A stretch of DNA of 33,527 nt from a virus. The notes under the pieces were generated by a model. The model saw only the letters and a list, made by a program, of their open reading frames with translations. It did not search any database and was not told the DNA's origin. Both the position numbers and the translations under genes were made by a program. Position 1 is the first letter of the stretch; each line of letters starts with the position of its first letter. Positions 12,737-31,582 of the stretch are shown here, one piece after another. Where the stretch lies: the IMG/VR virus record IMGVR_UViG_3300025520_000130, positions 1 through 33,527 of that record, one strand, 5' to 3'.

Positions 12737-15016
12737 ATGAAGAGAGTCCTTTTCGACGACGCAGAGATCGCGGAGCACGGCGACTTCAACGCCATCGGCG
12801 AGAACAGCCAGCGCGCGCTCGACGCGGTCATCAACGATGCCATCGGCTACCCGGCGCATTGGGCCGCGTTCACGGTCGCGCAGAAGTCGGCACAGGAGGT
12901 CACGATCTCCGCCGGCCGCTACGTGACGCGCGAGAAGATCTTCGGGCAGGACGCTTCGTTCGACCTCAACCTGCAGATCTACATCCCGATCATCTCAAAT
13001 GACGAGCGCTGGGTTGCGCTGGTGCTGCGCGGCGAGGAGGTGACGGTCAATTCCGCCCGGAATTTCGAGACGTCGGAGGACCCGGAAACCAGCGTGGTGG
13101 TGAACCGCCAGACGCCGAAGACGATCGAGCGCCGGGTGAACGTCGTCGTGCAGCAGGGCAACGCGACGCCGGCACCGGCGCTGAAGCCGGTCATCGCCGA
13201 GACCGACGCGGTCATCGCCATGGTGCTGCTCCGGTCCACCGGCGTGACGCTGATCGAGCCGGGCGAAGGCTGGCGCGTTAAGAGCCTCTACGAAGTCGAG
13301 GGCCGGGTCACCGCGCTCGAGATCAACCTCGACTCGCTGTTCCGGCGCACCACGTCGATCGAAACCGACATCGCCAACATCGCGTCGCGCCTGTCGGACA
13401 TCCCGAACCCGACGATCATCCGGCAGATGCAGCGGGACATCGGCGCCACGCGCCGGATCCTGGCGCTGCCGGACGAGCAGCGAGCCTACGTCTTCGACGC
13501 CGGCCTCACCTACGACATCTGGGACACGGCTCATGCGAGCTGGCTGGCCCGCGTCCGCGAGGGGATCCGCTTCTCCTACGCGAACGAGAGCATCCAGCAG
13601 CTGACGGTCCTCAACGAGGACGACCCGAAGATCATGATCAAGGCCGGGCGCCGCATGGTGCCTGCCTATGACGAGGCGCTGCGCATCGCCAACATCGGCA
13701 CCGACGCCACGCTGAACATCTCCCAGCAGGTGCACACCGTGGTGACCGCCACCGAGCGCACCGTGTCGCGGACCGCCATCCGGTACGGGACGGTGAAGAA
13801 GGTCTGCACCAACAGCCGGTATTGGGCTCAGGTGACGGCCGGACTCCGGGTCGGCGAAATGTTCACGCTGGACGGCGAGGAGTTCCAGCTCGTCACCAAG
13901 CATGGCGAGGTCACCGGGCAGCACACGAACAAATGGCGTTATGTCAGGCAGGTGATCCGGGAGGAGTGGACCGAGACCTATTGGGACTACGAGACCAGCG
14001 ACGTGGGCGTGAACGGCTCCGTCTACGGCCAGACGTTTCTGGTCTCCCAGCCCATGGTCATGACGTCGATCGAGCTCAACTTCGCGACGGTCGGCGCCGC
14101 GGGCGACGTGCACCTCTTCGTGTGCGAGACGAACGCCTCCGGCATGCCGGTCTTCGACAAGGTGCTCGGCCACGTCACCGTGGCGCGCAACAGCCTGGTG
14201 GTCGGCTGGAACCGCTTTGAGCTGCCGCTGACGCTCCTGGAGTCCGGCAAGCGGTACGCCTTCTTCACGGTGACGACCGGCAACCACGCGGTCTACGCCA
14301 CGACCGGCAACAAGTTCACCGGCGGGTCGCGCTTCTACGCGACGGACGGCGCCTGGGCACAGGGTGATGCCACGAGCGACATCGCGTTCCGGCTCTACGG
14401 CGCGCGATTCCGGGATGTCCGGACTGTCGTGCCCTTCAACAACCTGACCCTCGAGAACGGCATGACCGACCTCGAGTTCGTCATGAAGGCATGGGCGCCG
14501 GGCGGGACGGCCCTCGAGTGGGAGATCAAGCCGTCGGGCGCAACGGAGTGGACGACGCTCGAGGAGCACCCCGATCTCGGCACGCATCCGCTCGTCGGCC
14601 TGCCGGCGCTGGTGGAGCTGCGGCTGGTCATGGTCGGCACGGTCGACCTGGCGCCCATGGTCATTCTCGACACAGCGCTGCGCGGCCGATGCGGTCGCCA
14701 CCGTGGCAACATGGTCGCGGTGAGCGACAACATCGCGTTCGGCCTGTCCACGACGACCATCGTGACGCAGTTCACGGTCGACGCCTTCAACCCGGCCGAG
14801 CACACGTTCACGCCGAAGCTCATGGTGGGCGCCACGGTGCTGACTGCCGAAGCGACGGTGGTCGAGATCGATCCCGACGAGCCGGAGCGGCGGACGTTCA
14901 CCTCGACCTTCGAGCTTGGCGCCGCCGCCACTGGTGCGCGCATGCGGCCGGAGATGACGGCCTCGAACGTGGTGAGCGTGCCGTTCATCCAGGACTGCTT
15001 CATCGCCGCACTCTGA
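12737..15016 (+). CDS. Large fibre-like baseplate protein (DUF4815-like N-terminus)
   Basis: A 759-residue protein in the slot of the P2 fibre gene H. The N-terminal 170 residues resemble the DUF4815-type module of phage tails (a short start, YPAHWAAFTVAQ, GRYVTREKIF). Residues about 184-222 look like a coiled coil (VEGRVTALEINLDSLFRRTTSIETDI), suggesting a trimer. The middle has a repeating beta pattern, and residues about 430-560 look like a carbohydrate-binding beta sandwich (FLVSQPMVMTSIELNFATVGAAGDVHLFVCE, RYAFFTVTTGNHAVY). This suits a fibre or tail spike stem and receptor-binding unit. GAGAG precedes the ATG. No catalytic motif is visible. Family placement is tentative; the role is inferred from order and shape. 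Confidence 0.6.
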   Translation: MKRVLFDDAEIAEHGDFNAIGENSQRALDAVINDAIGYPAHWAAFTVAQKSAQEVTISAGRYVTREKIFGQDASFDLNLQIYIPIISNDERWVALVLRGEEVTVNSARNFETSEDPETSVVVNRQTPKTIERRVNVVVQQGNATPAPALKPVIAETDAVIAMVLLRSTGVTLIEPGEGWRVKSLYEVEGRVTALEINLDSLFRRTTSIETDIANIASRLSDIPNPTIIRQMQRDIGATRRILALPDEQRAYVFDAGLTYDIWDTAHASWLARVREGIRFSYANESIQQLTVLNEDDPKIMIKAGRRMVPAYDEALRIANIGTDATLNISQQVHTVVTATERTVSRTAIRYGTVKKVCTNSRYWAQVTAGLRVGEMFTLDGEEFQLVTKHGEVTGQHTNKWRYVRQVIREEWTETYWDYETSDVGVNGSVYGQTFLVSQPMVMTSIELNFATVGAAGDVHLFVCETNASGMPVFDKVLGHVTVARNSLVVGWNRFELPLTLLESGKRYAFFTVTTGNHAVYATTGNKFTGGSRFYATDGAWAQGDATSDIAFRLYGARFRDVRTVVPFNNLTLENGMTDLEFVMKAWAPGGTALEWEIKPSGATEWTTLEEHPDLGTHPLVGLPALVELRLVMVGTVDLAPMVILDTALRGRCGRHRGNMVAVSDNIAFGLSTTTIVTQFTVDAFNPAEHTFTPKLMVGATVLTAEATVVEIDPDEPERRTFTSTFELGAAATGARMRPEMTASNVVSVPFIQDCFIAAL

Positions 15017-15027
15017 GGGAGAACCCC

Positions 15028-15195
15028 ATGGCCACCTACGACAACGAGACGATCTACCGGGTGAAGCTGACCAGGGTCGTCGAGCGCGGGCCGATGAAGT
15101 ACCGGCCCGGCAGCGAGATCGAGATGAAGGGCGCCTGGCTGAAGGCGCTCATCGCCGAGCATGGGGAGGGCATCGTTGAATACGCCCACACCTGA
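15028..15195 (+). CDS. Small FluMu-N-like protein, copy 3
   Basis: A 55-residue protein too short for many gene callers. AGGGAG precedes the ATG. Its sequence (IYRVKLTRVVERGPMKYRPGSEIEM, then WLKALIAEHGEGIVEY) follows the same strand, PG turn, strand, helix plan as the small genes at 8515 and 10544. It lacks their charged tail. It overlaps the start of the following fibre gene by about 20 bases, and the ribosome site of that gene lies inside it, so the two are probably co-translated. The function is unknown. Confidence 0.65.
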   Translation: MATYDNETIYRVKLTRVVERGPMKYRPGSEIEMKGAWLKALIAEHGEGIVEYAHT

Positions 15196-16180
15196 CAACG
15201 GCTACACCGTCGACTCCACGATGGAGATGACGCCGACCCTGTTCAACGGCATCTTCGGCTCGATCCACGCGCGGCTCATCGAGCGCGAAAACCTCGAGGC
15301 CAGCTTCGAGTCGTTGATCGAGGAAGGGACGTCGGCGGCGCTCGACATCATCCAGGCGAACATCACGCCGCAGCTGGAGGCTCTTCAGCAGGCGATCGAC
15401 ACCGCCTTCGAGGAGATCTCGCTCATCAGCGAAGGCGTCGCGCCGAACTCGGTGCTGCTGAACGGCCAGAACGGGGCCTACTACCTCAACCCGGCCAACT
15501 TCAGCACGTCGGCGAACGTGAAGGAGTTCATGGCGGCAGCGGACTACGCCGCCATGAGGAGCGCGATGGGCGTGTCGTCCACTGCGGAGATGACGGCGGC
15601 GATCTCGGCTGCGCTGGATGCCTTCGTGAACGGCGCCCCCGGGGCGCTGGACACGCTCAACGAGCTGGCGGCGGCTCTCGGCAACGATCCGAACTTCGCC
15701 GCCAGCATGGCAGCTGCGCTCGCCAACAAGGCCGCGGCCGACCATACCCACCTCTACGCCACCGACGTCATAGCTGGCTTCCTCGAGATCGGAACCATCG
15801 CAGAGTTCCGGAGCAAGGCGGTCGGCTACGCGCTGACCACGGACCGGGTGTGGGACGCTGCGGTGCCGGTCAACCTGGGCAACCTGAGCGGCCTGGTGTC
15901 GCTCAACTTCGGCAACTTCCTGAACGCCCGGGCCACCATGGCGGGGGCCGTCACCTTCAACGCCATTCCTGGCCTGAAGCAGGGGCAGACGGCCGTGCTG
16001 GAGCTTGTGCAGGACGCGACGGGAGGGCGGACGCTCTCGTTGAACTCGGCCTACTTCGTGGCCGGAGGAAGCGGCGGGCTATCGCTGTCGACCGCGCCGA
16101 ACGCGCGGGACGTCATCACCCTGTACGGCCTTTCCACCGGGAAGGTTCTCGTGTCGCTCGTGAGCAAGCTGGCGGCCTGA
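15176..16180 (+). CDS. Tail fibre protein, first copy
   Basis: A 334-residue fibre protein. I choose TTG 15176 because GGGGAGGG at 15163-15170 sits five bases upstream; ATG 15161 is an in-frame alternative with no ribosome site. The N-terminal 100 residues are helical, probably a baseplate-binding trimer stalk. Residues about 155-175 carry the GALDTLNELAAALGNDPNF module common in phage fibres. The last 130 residues (from DHTHLYATD through LNFGNFLNARAT to the end) closely resemble the C-terminus of the protein at 25595. It is followed by an intrinsic terminator. It probably works in host recognition, but no binding partner can be named. Confidence 0.8.
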   Translation: MNTPTPDNGYTVDSTMEMTPTLFNGIFGSIHARLIERENLEASFESLIEEGTSAALDIIQANITPQLEALQQAIDTAFEEISLISEGVAPNSVLLNGQNGAYYLNPANFSTSANVKEFMAAADYAAMRSAMGVSSTAEMTAAISAALDAFVNGAPGALDTLNELAAALGNDPNFAASMAAALANKAAADHTHLYATDVIAGFLEIGTIAEFRSKAVGYALTTDRVWDAAVPVNLGNLSGLVSLNFGNFLNARATMAGAVTFNAIPGLKQGQTAVLELVQDATGGRTLSLNSAYFVAGGSGGLSLSTAPNARDVITLYGLSTGKVLVSLVSKLAA

Positions 16181-16276: not shown

Positions 16277-17752
16277 ATGGACATCTATCTTCACGGCGTG
16301 GAAACGATCGAGCAGAACAACGGGCCGCGCCCGGTCTCGACGATCGACACCGGCGTCATCGGGCTGGTCGGCACCGCGCCGGACGCCAACGACACGCTCT
16401 GGCCGCTCAACACGCCGATCCCGGTCTACGGCAGCAACGGCGCCGTCCAGGGCCTGGGTAACACCGGCACGCTGAAGGACGCGATCGACGGCATCTTCGA
16501 TCAGGCGACCCGCGTCTCGCAGACCATCCTGGTGGTGCGCGTCGAGGAAGGCGAGGACATCACCGAGACGATGGCCAACATCATCGGCAGCTCGACCGGC
16601 TACACCGGCCTGCATGCGCTGCGCCGGGCACCGGATCTGCACAACCTGCGGCCCAAGCTGTTCTGCGCGCCGGGCTTCACCAGCCAGCGGCCCACCGACG
16701 GCATCTCCGGGATCGCGGTCTCCGACGGCGGCTCCGGCTACACCGAGGCTCCGGCGGTCACCATCACCCGCGGCGCGGGCGACACCACCGGGTTCGGAGC
16801 AACGGCGGTCGCGATCATCGACAGCGAGACCGGCAAGGTTTCCGAGGTGGTGCTGACCAACCCGGGTGCCGGCTACACGACCGCGCCGACGATCGCCCTC
16901 ACCGGCGGCGACGGCACCGGGGCGACGGCGACCGCGACCGTGGGCACGGTGGCCAACCCGGTCACGATGGAGCTCCTGACGCTCGCCAACCGCTTCCGCG
17001 GCGGCGTGATCAAGGATGCTCCGGCCACCAGCGCATCGGCCGCCATCACCGACCGCCTGGACTACGACACCGACCGGCTCCTGATCATCGAGCCGATGGT
17101 GAAGGTGTTCAAGGCCGGCGCGGTGGTGTCGCAGCCGGCATCGGCCCGCGTGGCCGGCCTGCAGGCGCGGATCGACTACAGCGAGGGCTTCTGGTTCTCG
17201 CCGTCGAACCACGTCGTCGAGGGCGTGGTCGGGATCTCGCGGACGATCGAGCATTCGATCAACGACCCCGCGGCGGAGTCGCAGCTGCTCAACAAGAACG
17301 CCGTGGCCTGCATCGTCCGCTCGCCGAGCGGCGGCTTCAAGCTGTGGGGTTCGCGGGTTCCGTCGTCGGATTCGCTTCGCCAGTTCTGGTCGGTGCGGCG
17401 CGCGCATGACGCCATCATGGACTCGATCGAACTGGCGTCGGAGGTGTTCATCGACAAGCCGTTCGGCCTGCAGGTGCTCGTCGACATCGCCGAGACGGTC
17501 AACAGCGCGCTGCGCCGCTGGCAGGGGCTCGGCGCCACGCTCGGCGGCCGCGTCTGGTTCGACCCGGTGCTCAACACGAAGGAGACCTGGGCGAGCGGAC
17601 ACCTCTACGTGTCCTACGACGCCGAGGGCCCGGCGCCGATCGAGCACATCACCTTCGTGTTCAACCGCAACACCGGCTACTACGGGCAGCTGGCACAGGA
17701 GGCGATCCGAGAGATCGCGCGCCTGTCGAGCGCAGCTCTGCCCGCGGCCTGA
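16277..17752 (+). CDS. Tail sheath protein FI
   Basis: A 491-residue P2 FI-like contractile sheath protein. The N-terminus (FLHG-type start, GVETIEQNNGPRPVSTIDTGVIGLVGTA) and the C-terminal half (RVAGLQARID, SEGFWFSPSNHVVEGV, LNKNAVACIV, KLWGSRVPSSD, GYYGQLAQEAIREI) are diagnostic. Residues about 145-230 are an insertion relative to a plain sheath: two imperfect repeats of a GSGYTEAP...FGATAVAII / GAGYTTAP...GATATATV type. Such glycine/tyrosine beta repeats should be exposed on the outer face. AGGAGAG precedes the ATG. A terminator lies upstream, so a promoter for the block sheath-tube-E should lie between 16228 and 16260, but I cannot define it. Confidence 0.94.
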   Translation: MDIYLHGVETIEQNNGPRPVSTIDTGVIGLVGTAPDANDTLWPLNTPIPVYGSNGAVQGLGNTGTLKDAIDGIFDQATRVSQTILVVRVEEGEDITETMANIIGSSTGYTGLHALRRAPDLHNLRPKLFCAPGFTSQRPTDGISGIAVSDGGSGYTEAPAVTITRGAGDTTGFGATAVAIIDSETGKVSEVVLTNPGAGYTTAPTIALTGGDGTGATATATVGTVANPVTMELLTLANRFRGGVIKDAPATSASAAITDRLDYDTDRLLIIEPMVKVFKAGAVVSQPASARVAGLQARIDYSEGFWFSPSNHVVEGVVGISRTIEHSINDPAAESQLLNKNAVACIVRSPSGGFKLWGSRVPSSDSLRQFWSVRRAHDAIMDSIELASEVFIDKPFGLQVLVDIAETVNSALRRWQGLGATLGGRVWFDPVLNTKETWASGHLYVSYDAEGPAPIEHITFVFNRNTGYYGQLAQEAIREIARLSSAALPAA

Positions 17753-18748: not shown

Positions 18749-18912
18749 TCGCGCACGTCCTGCACTTCAGCAGGGCCGATCTTCTCGACATGGAGTTCCC
18801 CGAACTCGTCGAGGTCTGGTATCCCCAGGCCACGAAGATCTTCGCGCAGACGCAGCAGCAGAGCGTCGAAAACCTAGCGAGGATCCTCCATGTCGGTTTC
18901 AAAGGCCGCTAA
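18682..18912 (+). CDS. Frameshift extension E' (GpE family)
   Basis: About 76 codons in the -1 frame relative to E, joined to E residue 120 if slippage occurs at 18680-18682, giving a protein of about 196 residues. The middle, VVAHVLHFSRADLLDMEFPELVEVWYPQA, matches the short GpE-type tail protein of P2 (an aliphatic/His start, then L..M...EL..W). No ATG, GTG or TTG is suitably placed before this conserved part; the first in-frame ATG is inside it. So it must be made by frameshifting, as with P2 E+E'. It overlaps the tape measure start by 23 bases. No separate gene is likely. Confidence 0.72.
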   Translation, partial: SAAETADGGRAAFRDWPEYAAVVAHVLHFSRADLLDMEFPELVEVWYPQATKIFAQTQQQSVENLARILHVGFKGR

Positions 18913-21664
18913 GCTCATCCTGACCCTGGTCGACCAGGTGTCGGGTCCGGCGCAGGCGATCACCGCAGCCCTGACCGGCGTGAACGCGGCGGTTGGCCTG
19001 GCCGGGAAGGCGGCAATGGCGCCCGTGAACGCGGTGGGCAATGCCGCCCGCGAGTTCCGCCGCAGCGCCGGGGACATCACGGTGGCCGGCGGCGCGATCG
19101 CCATGGGCCTCGGGAAGGCCGGCAAGACCATCTACGACATGGAGGACACCCTCAACGAAATCGAGGGCCGCCGCTTCGGCAAGAACGACGTCTTCAATCT
19201 GGCGGACGGGACGGAGATGACCCGGGAGGCGTTCCGTCAGAACGTCACCGACCTGATCTCGGAAATCAACAAGACCTCGCCGCGTCATGCCGGCGAGATC
19301 GCCAAGGCCTACAACCAGCTCGTCCAGGCGGGTCTCACCCACGAGCAGGTTGAGGGTGTCCTGCCAATCGCGATCGACTTCGCGATCGCCGGCAACTACG
19401 ACACCGAGGAAGCCGCCGACAAGCTGACCAACGTCATGACGGCGATGCGGCTGCCGATGGCCACCATGGCCGAGGCCAATTCGTCGGCGCTGCGCGCGGC
19501 CGATGTCATCGCCTACGCCGCGAACCTGACGAACTCGAACGTGGAGCAGATGACCGAGGCATTCAAGTATGCCGCGCCGTCGGCCTCGGCGCTCGGCATT
19601 TCGATCGAAGAGCTGGCGGCGATGTTCCTCATTCAGGCGCGCCGCGGCATCAAGGCGTCGGAGGCCGGCGTGTCGATCAGGGCGATGATGACCCGGATGA
19701 TCCGGCCCACCAACATGGCGCAGGAGGCGTTGGGCCGGTACAACATCGACCTCGCCGACTACCTCGAGAAGTCGCGCGAGATCTCGGCTGCCGACATTTC
19801 CAACGCCCTGGCATTCAACGGCCTGGACGCCAAGGCTGCGGAGGCGGAGGTCCAGAAGATCCTCGACTCCACCGTAGCCACGAGCGAGAAGGTCAAGACG
19901 ATCACCGCCGAGATCATGAAGGCGGTCGGCGACAACAGCACGATGTCCGCCGATCAGATCTCCACCTCGGTGAGCGATATCCTGTTCGGCTTCGGCGAAT
20001 CGCTGGACGTCGAACGGCTGATCGCCGACATGCAGGCGGCCAACATCGCCATGTCCGACTTCTTCCGGATCTTCGACGTCCGCCAGGGCGCGCGCACGCT
20101 GGCGCTCTTCGGCGACGACTTCTCGAAGTGGACCAGCGAGCTCGAAACGAACTCGCAAGGGTTCGCCCAGGCCCTGCGCGAGACGCGCATGGGAGGCGTC
20201 GTCGGCGCGGTGGCTCGAATGAGCGCCGCCATGATCGACCTCTTCCGGGCGGCGGCCGACTCCGGCGTCCTGGACACGGCAACGCGGGCGATCGAGAACT
20301 TCGCCGCTGCCATCAACCGGCTTGGCGAGGTGAACCCGCTGATCCTGGAGCTGGGCACGTACAGCCTCGCGGCCGTCGCCGGCCTGGCAGCATTCGGGTT
20401 CGCGATGACGGGCGTCAGCGCAGCCGCCTCTCTGCTGGTCAACCCCATCACCGCGGCCGCGGCCGCCGTCGGGTATCTGGCCTACCTCAATTGGGATCAG
20501 ATCACCGGGTACGTGCGCGGCTTCGGCGCGGGTGTGCGCGAGGGCATGGGGCCGGAGACTGCCGCGCTCATCGACCGAGCATCCTCGGCGATCGGCGGGC
20601 TCTTCCAGCGTTTCGAGGGCGACGCGGCGGGCCTTGGGGCCAGTCACGGCGCGGGTCTCATGCGCGGCATCGAAACGACGATCGTGCGCACCAGGGAAAT
20701 GATCGCCTCGCTGAAGGAGATCGTGGCCGCGGTGCAGGCCAACCCGGAGTTTCAGGCGACTGTCGACCTGCTGGCCTCGTTCTTCAACACGATGGCGTCG
20801 GCCGGCGGCGCCGCCTGGCGCGTGATCAAGGGTGTGGCGAGCGGGGTGAAGGAGTTCGCGGCGGCGTTCGCCGAGAACCTGGCGCCCGGCTCTGTCGCGG
20901 GCATGCGTGACGGTCTCGTCAGCCTGCTCAACGCCTTCACGGAGGTGAACAACTTCGTCGGAGGGGTCTTCGACAAGATCTACGTGAACTTCGACGAGTC
21001 CGCTGCACGGGCGGGCGCGGCCGCGGCGCGGATGGTGAACTACCTCACCGGGATCGACTGGAGCGGCCATATCCAGCGCTCGATCGACCTGCTGAAAACC
21101 CTGCCCGGCGTGGTGAGCGCGCTGGCGGCCGACCTGCAGGCGCAGGCGGCAGCCTTCTACGCTGCCGGCGTGAGTATGGTGCAGTCCCTGTGGGACGGCG
21201 CCACGGCGAAGTTCGCCGAGTTCATCGAATGGGTGAGGGGGTTGCCCGGCCGCATCCGTGAGGCCTTCGGCAACCTCAACCTCAGCACCGCGATCGGCTT
21301 CACCGGCACGGGCAATGCCGGCAATGCCGGCGGCGCGGCGGCGGCGGGTGCTGCGCTCGGCTCGATGGTGGGAAAGCCGAAGCCCGACGGCGCGCGCGCC
21401 AGCGGCGGCCCGGTGAAAGCGGGCCTCACCTACAAGGTCGGCGAGAACGGCATCGAGCTGTTCACGCCGGCCGTCAACGGCTCGATCACGCCCAACCACA
21501 AGCTGGGCGGCGGCGCGCCGTCGGTCGTCATCAACAACCGCTTCGTTGTCCAGGGTGGCCAGGCCGAGCAGCAGGCGGCGGAGATCTTCCGCCAGCTGGA
21601 GCGTCAGCTCAACCGCTCGGCTCAGATCATCTTCGGCAGCGGCAACGCCTACGGAGAAGCATGA
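18890..21664 (+). CDS. Tail tape measure protein
   Basis: A 924-residue TP901-type tape measure that sets tail length and later helps DNA entry. The N-terminus (AKLILTLVDQVSGPAQAITAALTG) is typical. Residues about 75-330 form the conserved TP901 core (EAADKLTNVMTAM, ANLTNSNVEQMTEAFKYAAPSASALG, EAGVSIRAMMTRM). Hydrophobic segments occur at about residues 490-530. The 800s have a Gly/Ala-rich spacer with repeated GNAGNAGG, then a C-terminal GLTYKVGENGIELFTPAVNGSI motif common in these proteins. The ATG lies within the E' frame and follows GAGG. Since tail length scales with this protein, the tail should be roughly the length of the P2 tail or slightly longer. Confidence 0.94.
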   Translation: MSVSKAAKLILTLVDQVSGPAQAITAALTGVNAAVGLAGKAAMAPVNAVGNAAREFRRSAGDITVAGGAIAMGLGKAGKTIYDMEDTLNEIEGRRFGKNDVFNLADGTEMTREAFRQNVTDLISEINKTSPRHAGEIAKAYNQLVQAGLTHEQVEGVLPIAIDFAIAGNYDTEEAADKLTNVMTAMRLPMATMAEANSSALRAADVIAYAANLTNSNVEQMTEAFKYAAPSASALGISIEELAAMFLIQARRGIKASEAGVSIRAMMTRMIRPTNMAQEALGRYNIDLADYLEKSREISAADISNALAFNGLDAKAAEAEVQKILDSTVATSEKVKTITAEIMKAVGDNSTMSADQISTSVSDILFGFGESLDVERLIADMQAANIAMSDFFRIFDVRQGARTLALFGDDFSKWTSELETNSQGFAQALRETRMGGVVGAVARMSAAMIDLFRAAADSGVLDTATRAIENFAAAINRLGEVNPLILELGTYSLAAVAGLAAFGFAMTGVSAAASLLVNPITAAAAAVGYLAYLNWDQITGYVRGFGAGVREGMGPETAALIDRASSAIGGLFQRFEGDAAGLGASHGAGLMRGIETTIVRTREMIASLKEIVAAVQANPEFQATVDLLASFFNTMASAGGAAWRVIKGVASGVKEFAAAFAENLAPGSVAGMRDGLVSLLNAFTEVNNFVGGVFDKIYVNFDESAARAGAAAARMVNYLTGIDWSGHIQRSIDLLKTLPGVVSALAADLQAQAAAFYAAGVSMVQSLWDGATAKFAEFIEWVRGLPGRIREAFGNLNLSTAIGFTGTGNAGNAGGAAAAGAALGSMVGKPKPDGARASGGPVKAGLTYKVGENGIELFTPAVNGSITPNHKLGGGAPSVVINNRFVVQGGQAEQQAAEIFRQLERQLNRSAQIIFGSGNAYGEA

Positions 21665-23883: not shown

Positions 23884-24124
23884 TGGTGTCGCGATCTTCT
23901 TCGAGCCCGTGGTCGAGGCCACGCTCGAGGTCGGCGCGGGCACGGCCATCTTCGCAGGCGCCTCGCCGATCGGGAGCATTCCCCCCACCGTGGTCGATCC
24001 GGCACCAGCGATCGTGCCGGGTCCGCCTGGGCCGCCCGGACAGGGTGGGCCGCCCGGACCTCCGGGCCCTCCGGGGCCTGAAGCTGACCTCTCATCCCTC
24101 GTAATCGATGGTGGATTTTTCTGA
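23873..24124 (+). CDS. Collagen-like fibre protein
   Basis: An 83-residue protein. Residues 50-70 are seven unbroken Gly-X-Y triplets, most of them GPP, which should form a collagen-type triple helix. Before it is a hydrophobic strand region; after it the ending DLSSLVIDGGFF resembles the ending DGVTIDGGTF of the next fibre protein, so the C-terminal tip may be a shared trimer cap. The ATG overlaps the previous stop by 11 bases and its stop overlaps the next ATG. It probably forms a short trimeric rod at or near the baseplate. Collagen-like phage fibres are known, but a free-standing one this small is unusual. Confidence 0.72.
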   Translation: MSNDGVAIFFEPVVEATLEVGAGTAIFAGASPIGSIPPTVVDPAPAIVPGPPGPPGQGGPPGPPGPPGPEADLSSLVIDGGFF

Positions 24125-25365
24125 TGGCAACGATTCTGAAGTTCAAGCGGCGCTCTGCGGGCGGCGCGGCCGGCGCGCCCGCGGCCCTGAAGTCGGGTGA
24201 GGTCGCGCACAACGAGGCCGACAACACGCTCTACATCGGCAAGGGCGATGACGGCTCCGGCAACGCGACGGCGGTCGTTCCGCTCGCGGGCACCGGCGCC
24301 TTCGTCGACAAGGCGACCAGCCAGACGATCGACGGCGTGAAGACGTTCTCGTCTTCGCCGGTGGTGCCGGCGCCGACCACGGACCTGCAGGCAGCGACGA
24401 AGAAGTATGTCGACGACACTGTCGCCGGGGCGGCGGTGGCGGACGGCAGCATCTCGAACGCCAAGCTCGCGGACATGGCCAACGCCACGATCAAGGGCCG
24501 GGCGAGCGCGGGCACCGGCGACCCCGAGGATCTTTCGGCGGCGCAGGTGAAGACGCTGCTGGCTCTGACCAAGAGCGATGTCGGCCTGGCCAATGTCGAC
24601 AACACGTCCGATGCGAACAAGCCGGTCAGCTCCGCGACGCAGACCGCCTTGAACGCCAAGGCGAACCTGGCATCGCCGACGTTCATCGGGACTCCCGCGG
24701 CCCCGACGGCTGCCGGCGGCACCAACACGACGCAGATCGCGACGACGGCTTTCGTCCAGGCAGCCTTCGGCAACAACAGCGTCACGAACGCGAAGCTCGC
24801 CGACATGGCGACCGGCACGATCAAGGGCCGCGCTACGGCGGGGACCGGAGACCCCGAAGACCTCACCGCCGCCGAGGCGAAGGCGCTTCTGGCGCTGACC
24901 AAGAGCGACGTGGGGCTGAACAATGTCGACAACACCAGCGACGCCAGCAAGCCGATCTCGACGGCGACGCAGACGGCGCTGAATGCCAAGGCGAACCTCG
25001 CGTCGCCGGCCCTCACGGGAACGCCGACGGCGCCGACGGCGGCGGCGGGCGTGAACACCACGCAGATCGCGACCACCGCCTTCGTGCAGGCCGCGCTGTC
25101 GGCGCTGATCGACAGCGCGCCCGGCACGCTCGACACGCTCAACGAACTCGCGGCCGCCCTCGGCGACGACCCGAACTTCGCGAGCACCATCACCACCTCG
25201 CTCGCCACCAAGCTCGTCAAGTCGGCGAACCTGTCCGACCTGACCGATGCGGCGGCGGCGCGCGGGAACCTGGGCCTCGGCTCCATGGCGACGCAGGCGG
25301 CCAACGCCGTCGCCATCACCGGCGGCTCGATTGACGGCGTCACGATCGATGGAGGCACCTTCTGA
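24124..25365 (+). CDS. Tail fibre protein with tandem 110-residue repeat
   Basis: A 413-residue fibre protein. Residues 1-50 are a fibre N-terminal module (ILKFKRRSAGGAAGAPAALKSGEVAHNEADNTLYIG) that binds the baseplate or an adaptor. Residues about 60-105 include TIDGVKTFSSSPVVPAPTTDLQAATKKYVD, common in phage fibres. Residues 112-221 and 222-325 are two copies of one unit (NAKLADMA..TIKGRA.AGTGDPEDL ... TTQIATTAFVQAA). Then comes the GTLDTLNELAAALGDDPNF module and a C-terminal end DGVTIDGGTF. It overlaps both neighbours by one or a few bases. It probably sets host binding and can change length by recombination. Confidence 0.85.
   Translation: MATILKFKRRSAGGAAGAPAALKSGEVAHNEADNTLYIGKGDDGSGNATAVVPLAGTGAFVDKATSQTIDGVKTFSSSPVVPAPTTDLQAATKKYVDDTVAGAAVADGSISNAKLADMANATIKGRASAGTGDPEDLSAAQVKTLLALTKSDVGLANVDNTSDANKPVSSATQTALNAKANLASPTFIGTPAAPTAAGGTNTTQIATTAFVQAAFGNNSVTNAKLADMATGTIKGRATAGTGDPEDLTAAEAKALLALTKSDVGLNNVDNTSDASKPISTATQTALNAKANLASPALTGTPTAPTAAAGVNTTQIATTAFVQAALSALIDSAPGTLDTLNELAAALGDDPNFASTITTSLATKLVKSANLSDLTDAAAARGNLGLGSMATQAANAVAITGGSIDGVTIDGGTF
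24457..25095 (+). repeat. Tandem duplication within the fibre gene
   Basis: The unit at 24457-24786 (330 bases) is repeated directly from 24787 to about 25095. Protein identity is high and many codons are the same, but there are third-position differences, so the duplication is not brand-new. Unequal crossing-over between copies could lengthen or shorten the fibre in 110-residue steps. Confidence 0.8.
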
Positions 25366-30001: not shown

Positions 30002-30058
30002 GGGGGTAAGCTTGGCGCATACGATGGCGAATCATTGACTGCCGACAGAGATTATCGG

Positions 30059-31582
30059 ATGAGCCGTGCAGTATCTCGGATTGCGGACGCACCTGACCGA
30101 CAGGCTAGCAAAGCTGTTGCCGGGAAGATGGCGCGGCTTGCCGCTGGCGGACAGCCGCGAGTTCTCGACCTTTTTTCCGGTTGCGGAGGACTATCGCTTG
30201 GCTTTCAGTCCGTCGGATGCAGCATCGCCGCCGCAGTCGAGAATGATGCCGCTGCCGCGCGAACACACGGGTTGAATTTCCACGGCGCGGACGACAAGCA
30301 CTCTCGTCCTCGGGACATTGAGATTGAGACGCCGCAGTCGCTGACTTCTGATCTCGGACTGGGTCCGGTTTCCACAGCATTTGATATCGTCGTAGGAGGA
30401 CCGCCCTGTCAAGCTTTCGCGCGAGTGGGTCGGTCTAAATTGCGTGAGGTCGCCGATCATCCTGAGGCATTCCGGCACGATCCGCGTGCCCGCCTATATA
30501 TCCACTATCTAGACTTTGTGGCTGCCTGCGCTCCGCTCGCGGTCTTAATAGAAAATGTTCCGGATATGCTCAATCATGGCGGGCACAATCTAGCTGAAGA
30601 GATATCGGAAGTCTTGTCCGCACGGGGATACGTCTGTCGCTATACACTGCTCAATGCAGCGTACTATGGCGTTCCCCAGATGCGTGAACGCATGTTCCTG
30701 ATTGCCCTGCGGCGGGAGTTCGCTGCTGACCCCGTTTTTCCGGTTCCGACACACTGGATCGATTTGCCGCCCGGGTATGATGGCTCCCGCGCTGTTGCGC
30801 TCAAGCTGCTCGGCTCCAATGTGAGAGACGGAAAAGGCACACACTACTGCGAACCGCCAGTTCCTTCCGCCGACCAACCACTCGCTGTCACGGCTGCCGA
30901 TGCCATAGGTGACTTGCCGAAGCTTCACGCACGTAATCTGCTTGCGGAGGGAAAACTCCGGCGCGGCATTCACCGGTTCAAGGACGTTATCCCCTATAGC
31001 GAACCAGCGACGCTCAACGACTACGTCGGGCTCATGCGCCGCTGGCCTGGTTTAGAAGCGCCGGGAGCGCTTGCCGATCATGTCATCCGGTTTCTTCCCC
31101 GCGACTATAATCTCTTTGCCCGTCTTCAGCCTGGCGACCAGTACCCCGAGGCGCACAAGCTTGCGCAGGTTATGTTCGCCGAGGCCCTCGAGCGTTCTGC
31201 CGAACGTCCTCGCCAGAATTCCGCAGCATGGAAGGGCCTGCGCGACAGTATTGTCCCGCCGTACGATCCGACAAAGTTCCCAAACAAGTGGCGAAAGATG
31301 GAGGCCAACAGACCAGCACGCACGCTCCTGGCTCATCTTGGCAAGGATAGCTACAGCCATATCCACTATGACAGCGAACAGGCCCGTACGATCTCCGTGC
31401 GCGAGGCAGCCCGGCTTCAGTCGTTTCCAGACGGGTTCAGGTTCGCGGGGACGATGAATTCGGCTTTCCGCCAGATCGGAAACGCTGTCCCTCCGCTCAT
31501 GGCCCGGCGGCTGGCAGAGAGCATTCTTCAGTCCATTTCGGCCGGCCGGCAGTCAGCCCTGGCGGCGACCGGAGGGCTCTGA
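30059..31582 (+). CDS. C5 cytosine DNA methyltransferase
   Basis: A 507-residue DNA (cytosine-5) methyltransferase that transfers methyl from S-adenosylmethionine. ATG 30059 is chosen; an in-frame TTG at 30035 is the alternative. All main motifs are present in order: I DLFSGCGG (residues 37-44), IV GGPPCQAF with catalytic C117, VI ENV (165-167), VIII QMRER (207-211), IX RTISVREAARLQSFP (from 443) and X NSAFRQIGNAVPP (from 467). The target recognition region is long (about 215-440), so the site cannot be predicted. It is only four bases from the NurA gene. Base composition is lower in GC than the phage core, and codons TTA and ATA appear (30545-30550), pointing to transfer. It could protect DNA from a linked nuclease or from host restriction. 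Confidence 0.95.
   Translation: MSRAVSRIADAPDRQASKAVAGKMARLAAGGQPRVLDLFSGCGGLSLGFQSVGCSIAAAVENDAAAARTHGLNFHGADDKHSRPRDIEIETPQSLTSDLGLGPVSTAFDIVVGGPPCQAFARVGRSKLREVADHPEAFRHDPRARLYIHYLDFVAACAPLAVLIENVPDMLNHGGHNLAEEISEVLSARGYVCRYTLLNAAYYGVPQMRERMFLIALRREFAADPVFPVPTHWIDLPPGYDGSRAVALKLLGSNVRDGKGTHYCEPPVPSADQPLAVTAADAIGDLPKLHARNLLAEGKLRRGIHRFKDVIPYSEPATLNDYVGLMRRWPGLEAPGALADHVIRFLPRDYNLFARLQPGDQYPEAHKLAQVMFAEALERSAERPRQNSAAWKGLRDSIVPPYDPTKFPNKWRKMEANRPARTLLAHLGKDSYSHIHYDSEQARTISVREAARLQSFPDGFRFAGTMNSAFRQIGNAVPPLMARRLAESILQSISAGRQSALAATGGL

Follow-up and report, generated by a model that had tools for sequence, protein, structure and literature searches.

Extra domains on phage tail sheaths are common, yet unexplained. 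In T4, domain I of the sheath protein gp18 (PF22639, residues 98-188) is a six-stranded beta domain inserted in the tail sheath. This domain protrudes outward, makes no inter-subunit contacts, and binds both the baseplate and the retracted long fibres, with mutations in it blocking retraction; domain III of gp18 is described as a mostly parallel alpha/beta sheet (PMC3004832). Two-domain ('type 2') sheaths include those of Jilinvirus ep3 (475 aa) and Arya (477 aa) (Evseev et al. 2022, PMC9230969), and all Foxunavirus sheaths have an additional beta-barrel domain according to the paper on Murka (PMC10892653). In Vibrio phage XM1, whose tail measures 35 Å per ring, the sheath protein gp6 also carries an extra domain, which is inserted in the N-terminal domain and lies horizontal in the extended tail (PMC10457771).

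The sheath considered here is encoded in a viral DNA stretch of 33,527 nucleotides (IMG/VR record IMGVR_UViG_3300025520_000130, positions 1 to 33,527), referred to below as the window. The 491-aa open reading frame matched phrog_23 in profile searches (E 2.2e-88), and its matches to PF22671, PF04984 and PF17482 were all above the Pfam cut-offs. Fibre-like genes, sheath, tube and tape measure stand in a P2-like tail order. The relevant features are as follows.

12737..15016, + strand: 759-aa protein in tail fibre position; phrog_17470 (unknown function), E 5.4e-291
15161..16180, + strand: tail-fibre-like protein preceding the sheath gene; matches to several tail and tail fibre families of PHROG
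16277..17752, + strand: contractile tail sheath protein, 491 aa; open reading frame with phrog_23 and Pfam matches and the R2 pyocin sheath fold
16277..16699, + strand: sheath core, N-terminal part, residues 1-141; alignment to the R2 pyocin sheath, PF22671 at residues 25-89
16700..16957, + strand: inserted beta domain, residues 142-227, two repeats and six predicted strands; missing in insertless sheaths, strands from AlphaFold2
16700..16834, + strand: repeat 1, residues 142-186, motif GSGYTEAP, three strands; internal alignment and AlphaFold2
16835..16945, + strand: repeat 2, residues 187-223, motif GAGYTTAP, three strands; internal alignment and AlphaFold2
16958..17749, + strand: sheath core, C-terminal part, residues 228-491; alignment to the R2 pyocin sheath, PF04984 and PF17482
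17781..18290, + strand: tail tube protein, directly downstream of the sheath; PF04985, E 2.2e-26
18890..21664, + strand: tape measure protein, 924 aa, which sets tail length; PF10145 and phrog_28

Elsewhere in the window, a further tail-fibre-like gene is found at 24124-25365, downstream of the tape measure gene, and a DNA methyltransferase-like gene at 30035-31582 (phrog_116, E 3.3e-69). The second half of a 956-aa open frame at 4093-6963 matches the head maturation protease family phrog_53; the first 509 residues of this frame have no listed match, so that the gene may in fact begin further inside the frame.

A sequence-only reading of the window had claimed two imperfect repeats at about sheath residues 145-230. 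Both motifs lie where they were claimed, GSGYTEAP at residue 152 (window position 16730) and GAGYTTAP at residue 197 (window position 16865). Alignment of the halves 142-186 and 187-229 gave a BLOSUM62 score of 72. When both halves were shuffled (n = 5000), scores averaged 29.9 and did not exceed 65, and shuffling of the whole insert likewise yielded no score of 72 in 5000 trials, which rules out a chance repeat of low complexity. Within the sheath protein, the top-scoring segment pairs all fall inside the repeat stretch. Gly, Ala and Thr together make up 55% of the insert versus 26% of the remaining sheath, and the G+C content is 0.73 across the repeat stretch versus about 0.66-0.69 in most of the sheath gene. 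As such a rise is expected from the Gly/Ala/Thr content, it is by itself no sign of recent arrival.

The sheath of R2 pyocin, which has no insert, matched this sheath in sequence with an E of 6.6e-37. Its residues 3-139 aligned to residues 4-140 and its residues 145-367 to residues 235-457. No pyocin residues align to the repeats, so that both flanks are the standard sheath segments that had been supposed and the insert can be ruled out as part of the sheath core. The match to PF04984 runs from sheath residue 241, at profile position 54. Comparison with insertless sheaths placed the borders of the insert at residues ~142-227, close to the 145-230 originally given.

An AlphaFold2 model of the full sheath, built from 48 sequences of the window and related loci, had a mean pLDDT of 89.7 and a pTM of 0.83. 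In this model the insert has strands at residues 142-153, 160-164, 176-182, 187-195, 205-209 and 214-223 (block pLDDT about 92-95), which form two groups of three and are flanked by strand 128-130 and helix 228-240. Six strands were again predicted when the insert was folded alone from 35 sequences (pLDDT 86.7, pTM 0.72). The full model matched the R2 pyocin sheath (3j9q/3j9r) with Z scores of 42-44.5. The best match (Z 44.5) covered 375 of the 383 pyocin residues; the whole core fold is thus shared and the insert residues lie outside it. Compared with the R2 pyocin sheath, the model is ~116 residues longer, and ~86 of these residues constitute the insert. Packing of the segment into the sheath core had been named as the outcome that would speak against an outward insertion; in this prediction of a single subunit, the insert is a separate domain. 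The two three-strand repeats together are thus predicted to form one six-stranded beta domain that is distinct from the sheath core.

A Foldseek search with the insert returned no PDB match at E <= 0.001, and fold-search rows that name no relative were not counted as a sign of a new fold. Column entropies gave the conserved G, Y, P and T positions a structural appearance, and no clear binding site stood out among them. Neither a lectin fold nor a binding site was recognised for the insert in fold and Pfam searches. Kinship with legume lectins was rejected, as phmmer matches to Favin and related lectins were at chance level (E 0.33-1). With Pfam, none of the 11 families that 35 inserts matched at E <= 1 had an Ig name, and CARDB appeared in two of the 35, at best with E 0.064.

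Related sheaths were compared next to this one. From 112 sheath sequences, five short and five duplicate ones were dropped, which left 102 distinct proteins of more than 330 aa. The insert is present in 54 of these 102 and the other 48 have 6-20 residues at the site, a fraction that does not equal a population frequency because the sample was drawn with insert-bearing queries from the best 80 of one scan. The insert-bearing site is 83-101 aa long in 51 proteins and 169-187 aa long in three (L006, L058 and KA2-1); no site length between 20 and 83 aa occurs among the 102. Whole two-repeat units hence come and go among sheaths. Constancy of the segment in all related sheaths, which had also been held to count against the proposed insertion, is ruled out by its absence from nearly half of the sample.

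On a tree of the sheath core computed without the insert, presence requires at least nine changes, seven of which are forced by well-supported branches, a minimum of 7-9 gains or losses; the tree was made by a quick method and some of its long branches meet. The three four-repeat sheaths sit apart on this tree. Pairing of the repeats was scored in L006 and KA2-1, with L058 left out. In L006 the closest pairs are repeats 1 and 3 (17/37 identities) and repeats 2 and 4 (22/37), with 12-16 identities in the other pairs, the pattern that duplicating a two-repeat unit would produce. The picture is mixed in KA2-1, where repeats 1 and 3 are closest (27/43), followed by 3 and 4 (23/36).

Identity of the inserts is only loosely coupled to that of the cores (r 0.57 for 1275 pairs of 51 two-repeat proteins). 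Some pairs of sheaths have cores that are 76-77% alike and inserts that are 30-33% alike, among them L091 and L101 (76% and 30%), while the cores of L005 and PT1 are 40% alike and their inserts 63%. Judged from these identities, inserts appear to be exchanged between sheaths or to turn over fast. A megablast search of the region against a plasmid collection gave no match.

Nineteen of the 48 insertless sheaths carry extra residues at other sites of the core: (i) after residue 37 in five proteins (L027, L029, L080, L107 and L109; 114-193 aa); (ii) after residue 63 in three proteins (L068, L084 and L104; 57-75 aa, rich in Ala, Glu and Lys); (iii) after residues 89-97 in 11 proteins (73-97 aa). 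None of the 54 insert-bearing sheaths has an extra stretch of at least 15 aa at any of these three sites; most of the proteins with extra residues at 89-97 form one clade, and no significance is claimed for this pattern of one decoration per sheath. Seventeen extra residues before the start of one insert-bearing sheath are likely a matter of annotation. Three of the four insertion sites, including that of the insert itself, lie between a predicted strand and the following helix. T4 domains I and II are inserted between PF22671 and PF04984, which corresponds to the 89-97 site of this sheath. Strand-to-helix loops lie together on one edge of a mostly parallel alpha/beta sheet; given that the T4 domains at that edge are exposed, the insert should be exposed too.

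Profile searches further indicated that the repeats occur outside sheath proteins. The insert of the window matched virion protein profiles with E values of 2.4e-15 to 0.00062 (PHROG 701, 5342, 19630, 460, 708 and others). Within a set of 35 inserts, the head closure family Hc2 (phrog_460) was matched by 33, the tail fibre family phrog_5342 by 32 and the structural protein family phrog_701, which gave the E of 2.4e-15 for the window's own insert, by 30. Insert profiles also matched the baseplate wedge families phrog_708, 438, 2885 and 32294. A search of phage genomes with the insert gave 15 matching records in all at E 0.001; identities of the insert were 47% to a stretch of a hypothetical protein of a Shewanella phage, 44% to a stretch of a cyanophage gp8 baseplate wedge structural protein and 41% to related sheaths, and thus about equal. 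In BFVD, 37 structure matches were obtained at E <= 0.001, many of them to large phage structural proteins. By these matches the insert is a module that recurs across phage neck, baseplate and fibre proteins. A second copy in a fibre or baseplate protein of the same phage was also looked for; when the insert HMM was run against the 404 six-frame open reading frames of the window, only the sheath was above the inclusion threshold.

Structural comparison of the insert with 234 PDB chains (VIA-align 2) placed T4 gp18 in the top three positions (3j2m, 3foa and 3fo8; residues 99-188), with Z scores of 5.8-6.0 over 76 residues at 2.8-2.9 Å; a Z of 6.0 is in the range where perhaps only a common beta arrangement is shared. 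The next unrelated chain, a fragment of a Bacillus S-layer protein, followed at Z 3.2. In a profile comparison with 41 gp18 domain I sequences, which were chosen by eye from 80, a score of 22.98 was obtained over 48 columns (E 0.0016, hhalign probability 16%), and module position 6 came to lie opposite gp18 residue 99, as in the structural match. By comparison, 300 column shuffles peaked at 18.8 and the reversed alignment scored 10.7. Among 21 windows along gp18, the three that contain residues 99-136 in full scored 21.5-23.6 and the other 18 at most 16.5. With T4's own sequence alone, hhalign gave an E of 0.022 and a probability of 2.2%. None of the 35 inserts matched PF22639 (Gp18_dom_I) at E <= 1, while T4 gp18 and the T4-like sheath L157 do, and gp18 was not listed when the insert profile was compared with PDB chains up to E 10. 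The motif is openly visible in some T4-like sheaths, e.g. in L157 with VTITTEGQGYTVGDTVSI. Taken together, the insert is probably a distant homologue of T4 gp18 domain I, without being filed as PF22639. The two differ in that T4 domain I sits inside domain II, before PF04984 position 1, while the insert here lies inside PF04984 at about position 30-50. T4 domain I moreover contains an alpha helix, and the GxGYT motif, doubled in the insert, is not visible a second time in it.

At many loci between L169 and L211, distant T4-like gp18 proteins often differ strongly in sequence at the place of domain I, which suggests that domain I may also be swapped among T4-like phages.

The interpretation that we favour, and consider probable, is that the insert is a self-contained, dispensable and mobile decoration domain directed outward, distantly akin to T4 domain I and serving contacts on the tail surface; its outward orientation, dispensability, T4 kinship and contact function are what we infer, and the computations show the repeat, the clean insertion, the presence or absence among relatives, the predicted separate domain and the recurrence in other virion proteins. 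The module would occupy a loop between a strand and a helix at the outward-facing edge of the core, would have no part in the contraction core, and would have been acquired and lost repeatedly as a mobile unit of the virion surface. An outward orientation is expected by analogy, as the best fold match, T4 domain I, protrudes and as the loop is at an edge of the core comparable to that of the T4 insertion. The module would be shown once per subunit, or twice in the four-repeat forms, along the whole tail. Phage tails are about 0.15 nm long per tape measure residue. For a tape measure of 924 aa and the ring height of XM1, roughly 200-240 copies are expected along the tail, and display in hundreds of copies, as predicted from the sequence at the outset, is therefore plausible. 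The likeliest job of the module would be contacts on the tail exterior, either the docking of folded-back fibres or baseplate parts, or weak adhesion to host surfaces.

Adhesion would make the insert a weak glycan- or surface-binding module which, akin to the Ig-like accessory domains of structural proteins in phages, keeps the virion near its host. Such a role has been proposed by Evseev et al. for extra sheath domains (PMC9230969), and it is in line with the presence of the module in tail fibre and baseplate families and with a weak profile match to the tailspike depolymerase Dpo31 (E 0.0094). However, the searches revealed neither a lectin fold nor a binding site, and the neck and head proteins that contain the module are less obviously adhesive; we regard this role as a tentative possibility. 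Docking, by which the insert would be the place where the phage's own fibres rest when folded back, or a baseplate contact, as in T4 domain I, is favoured by the fold match to that domain, whose mutants fail in fibre retraction (PMC3004832), and by the fibres of A-1(L), which follow a groove of the sheath (PMC10966104). Homologues of the 759-aa protein in fibre position are found beside seven of 41 insert-bearing sheaths and none of 41 insertless ones, an association confounded by kinship and unequal flanks (nine loci matched in all, two of which were not classified). Docking would, however, require that these phages have retractable fibres, and it would have to work differently in sheaths with four repeats and in those without the insert. 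Taken singly, docking appears somewhat unlikely. Host adhesion and fibre docking are nearly even, and the evidence does not decide between them; a role in stability stands behind both.

In the latter case the module would brace neighbouring subunits or protect the sheath against proteases, salts or shear. In favour are the compactness of the domain and its repetition along the tail, and also a cementing role proposed by Evseev et al., who cite the contacts of domain II in phage 812 (PMC9230969). That T4 domain I is free of inter-subunit contacts (PMC3004832) and that nearly half of the sampled related sheaths do without the module make such a role unlikely. Least probable, and in our view distinctly improbable, is a neutral passenger, i.e. 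a mobile repeat that is tolerated with little function. The repeated gains and losses and the low-complexity Gly/Ala/Thr composition could be so explained; on the other hand, the module is kept in frame in 54 of the 102 sheaths, its Gly and Tyr positions are (nearly) invariant over deep divergence, and it is reused in many virion proteins.

As phages that are otherwise similar share this core without the module, with two repeats or with four, removal of one cleanly bounded unit makes it testable how a sheath decoration affects adsorption, stability and the position of the fibres. The insertion loop is also a place in the sheath that tolerates about 85-170 extra residues in nature.

In comparison with published sheaths, the insert is not new as a kind, since related two-domain sheaths are already in print. 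The sheaths of ep3, Arya, Murka and the FoX phages align over 93-97% of the length of this sheath; the insert is present in FoX5 and in the Jilinvirus PT1, and that of ep3 matches the window's insert directly. In its AlphaFold2 model, the sheath described here has the conserved main domain and the one additional, mostly beta, domain by which type 2 is defined; that this domain points away from the tube, as in type 2, is expected from the position of the loop and from T4. The extra domain of XM1 gp6 is of a different sort and resembles domain D3 of the flagellar cap protein FliD (PMC10457771). The accessible text of the two type 2 papers (PMC9230969, PMC10892653) contains no mention that we could find of the GxGYT duplication, its recurrence in virion proteins, its gain and loss or a kinship with T4 domain I, and the motif string GYTSAP was not found in the literature searched. 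Within that literature, we found no description of the repeats as such, of how they turn over, of their occurrence in other virion proteins or of the T4 link; for the last of these, the search lacked most subscription journals. It is conceivable, though we would not put it at even chances, that phage particles use the doubled GxGYT repeat as a mobile surface plug-in, of which T4 domain I is an old, worn copy without the second motif but with an added helix. Each sheath would then bear a single decoration of this kind, set by different phage lineages into different outward-facing loops of the core, so that the tail exterior has a docking or adhesion face. If true, the T4 link ties a widespread, uncharacterised virion repeat to the one sheath domain for which mutants and a known position are available.
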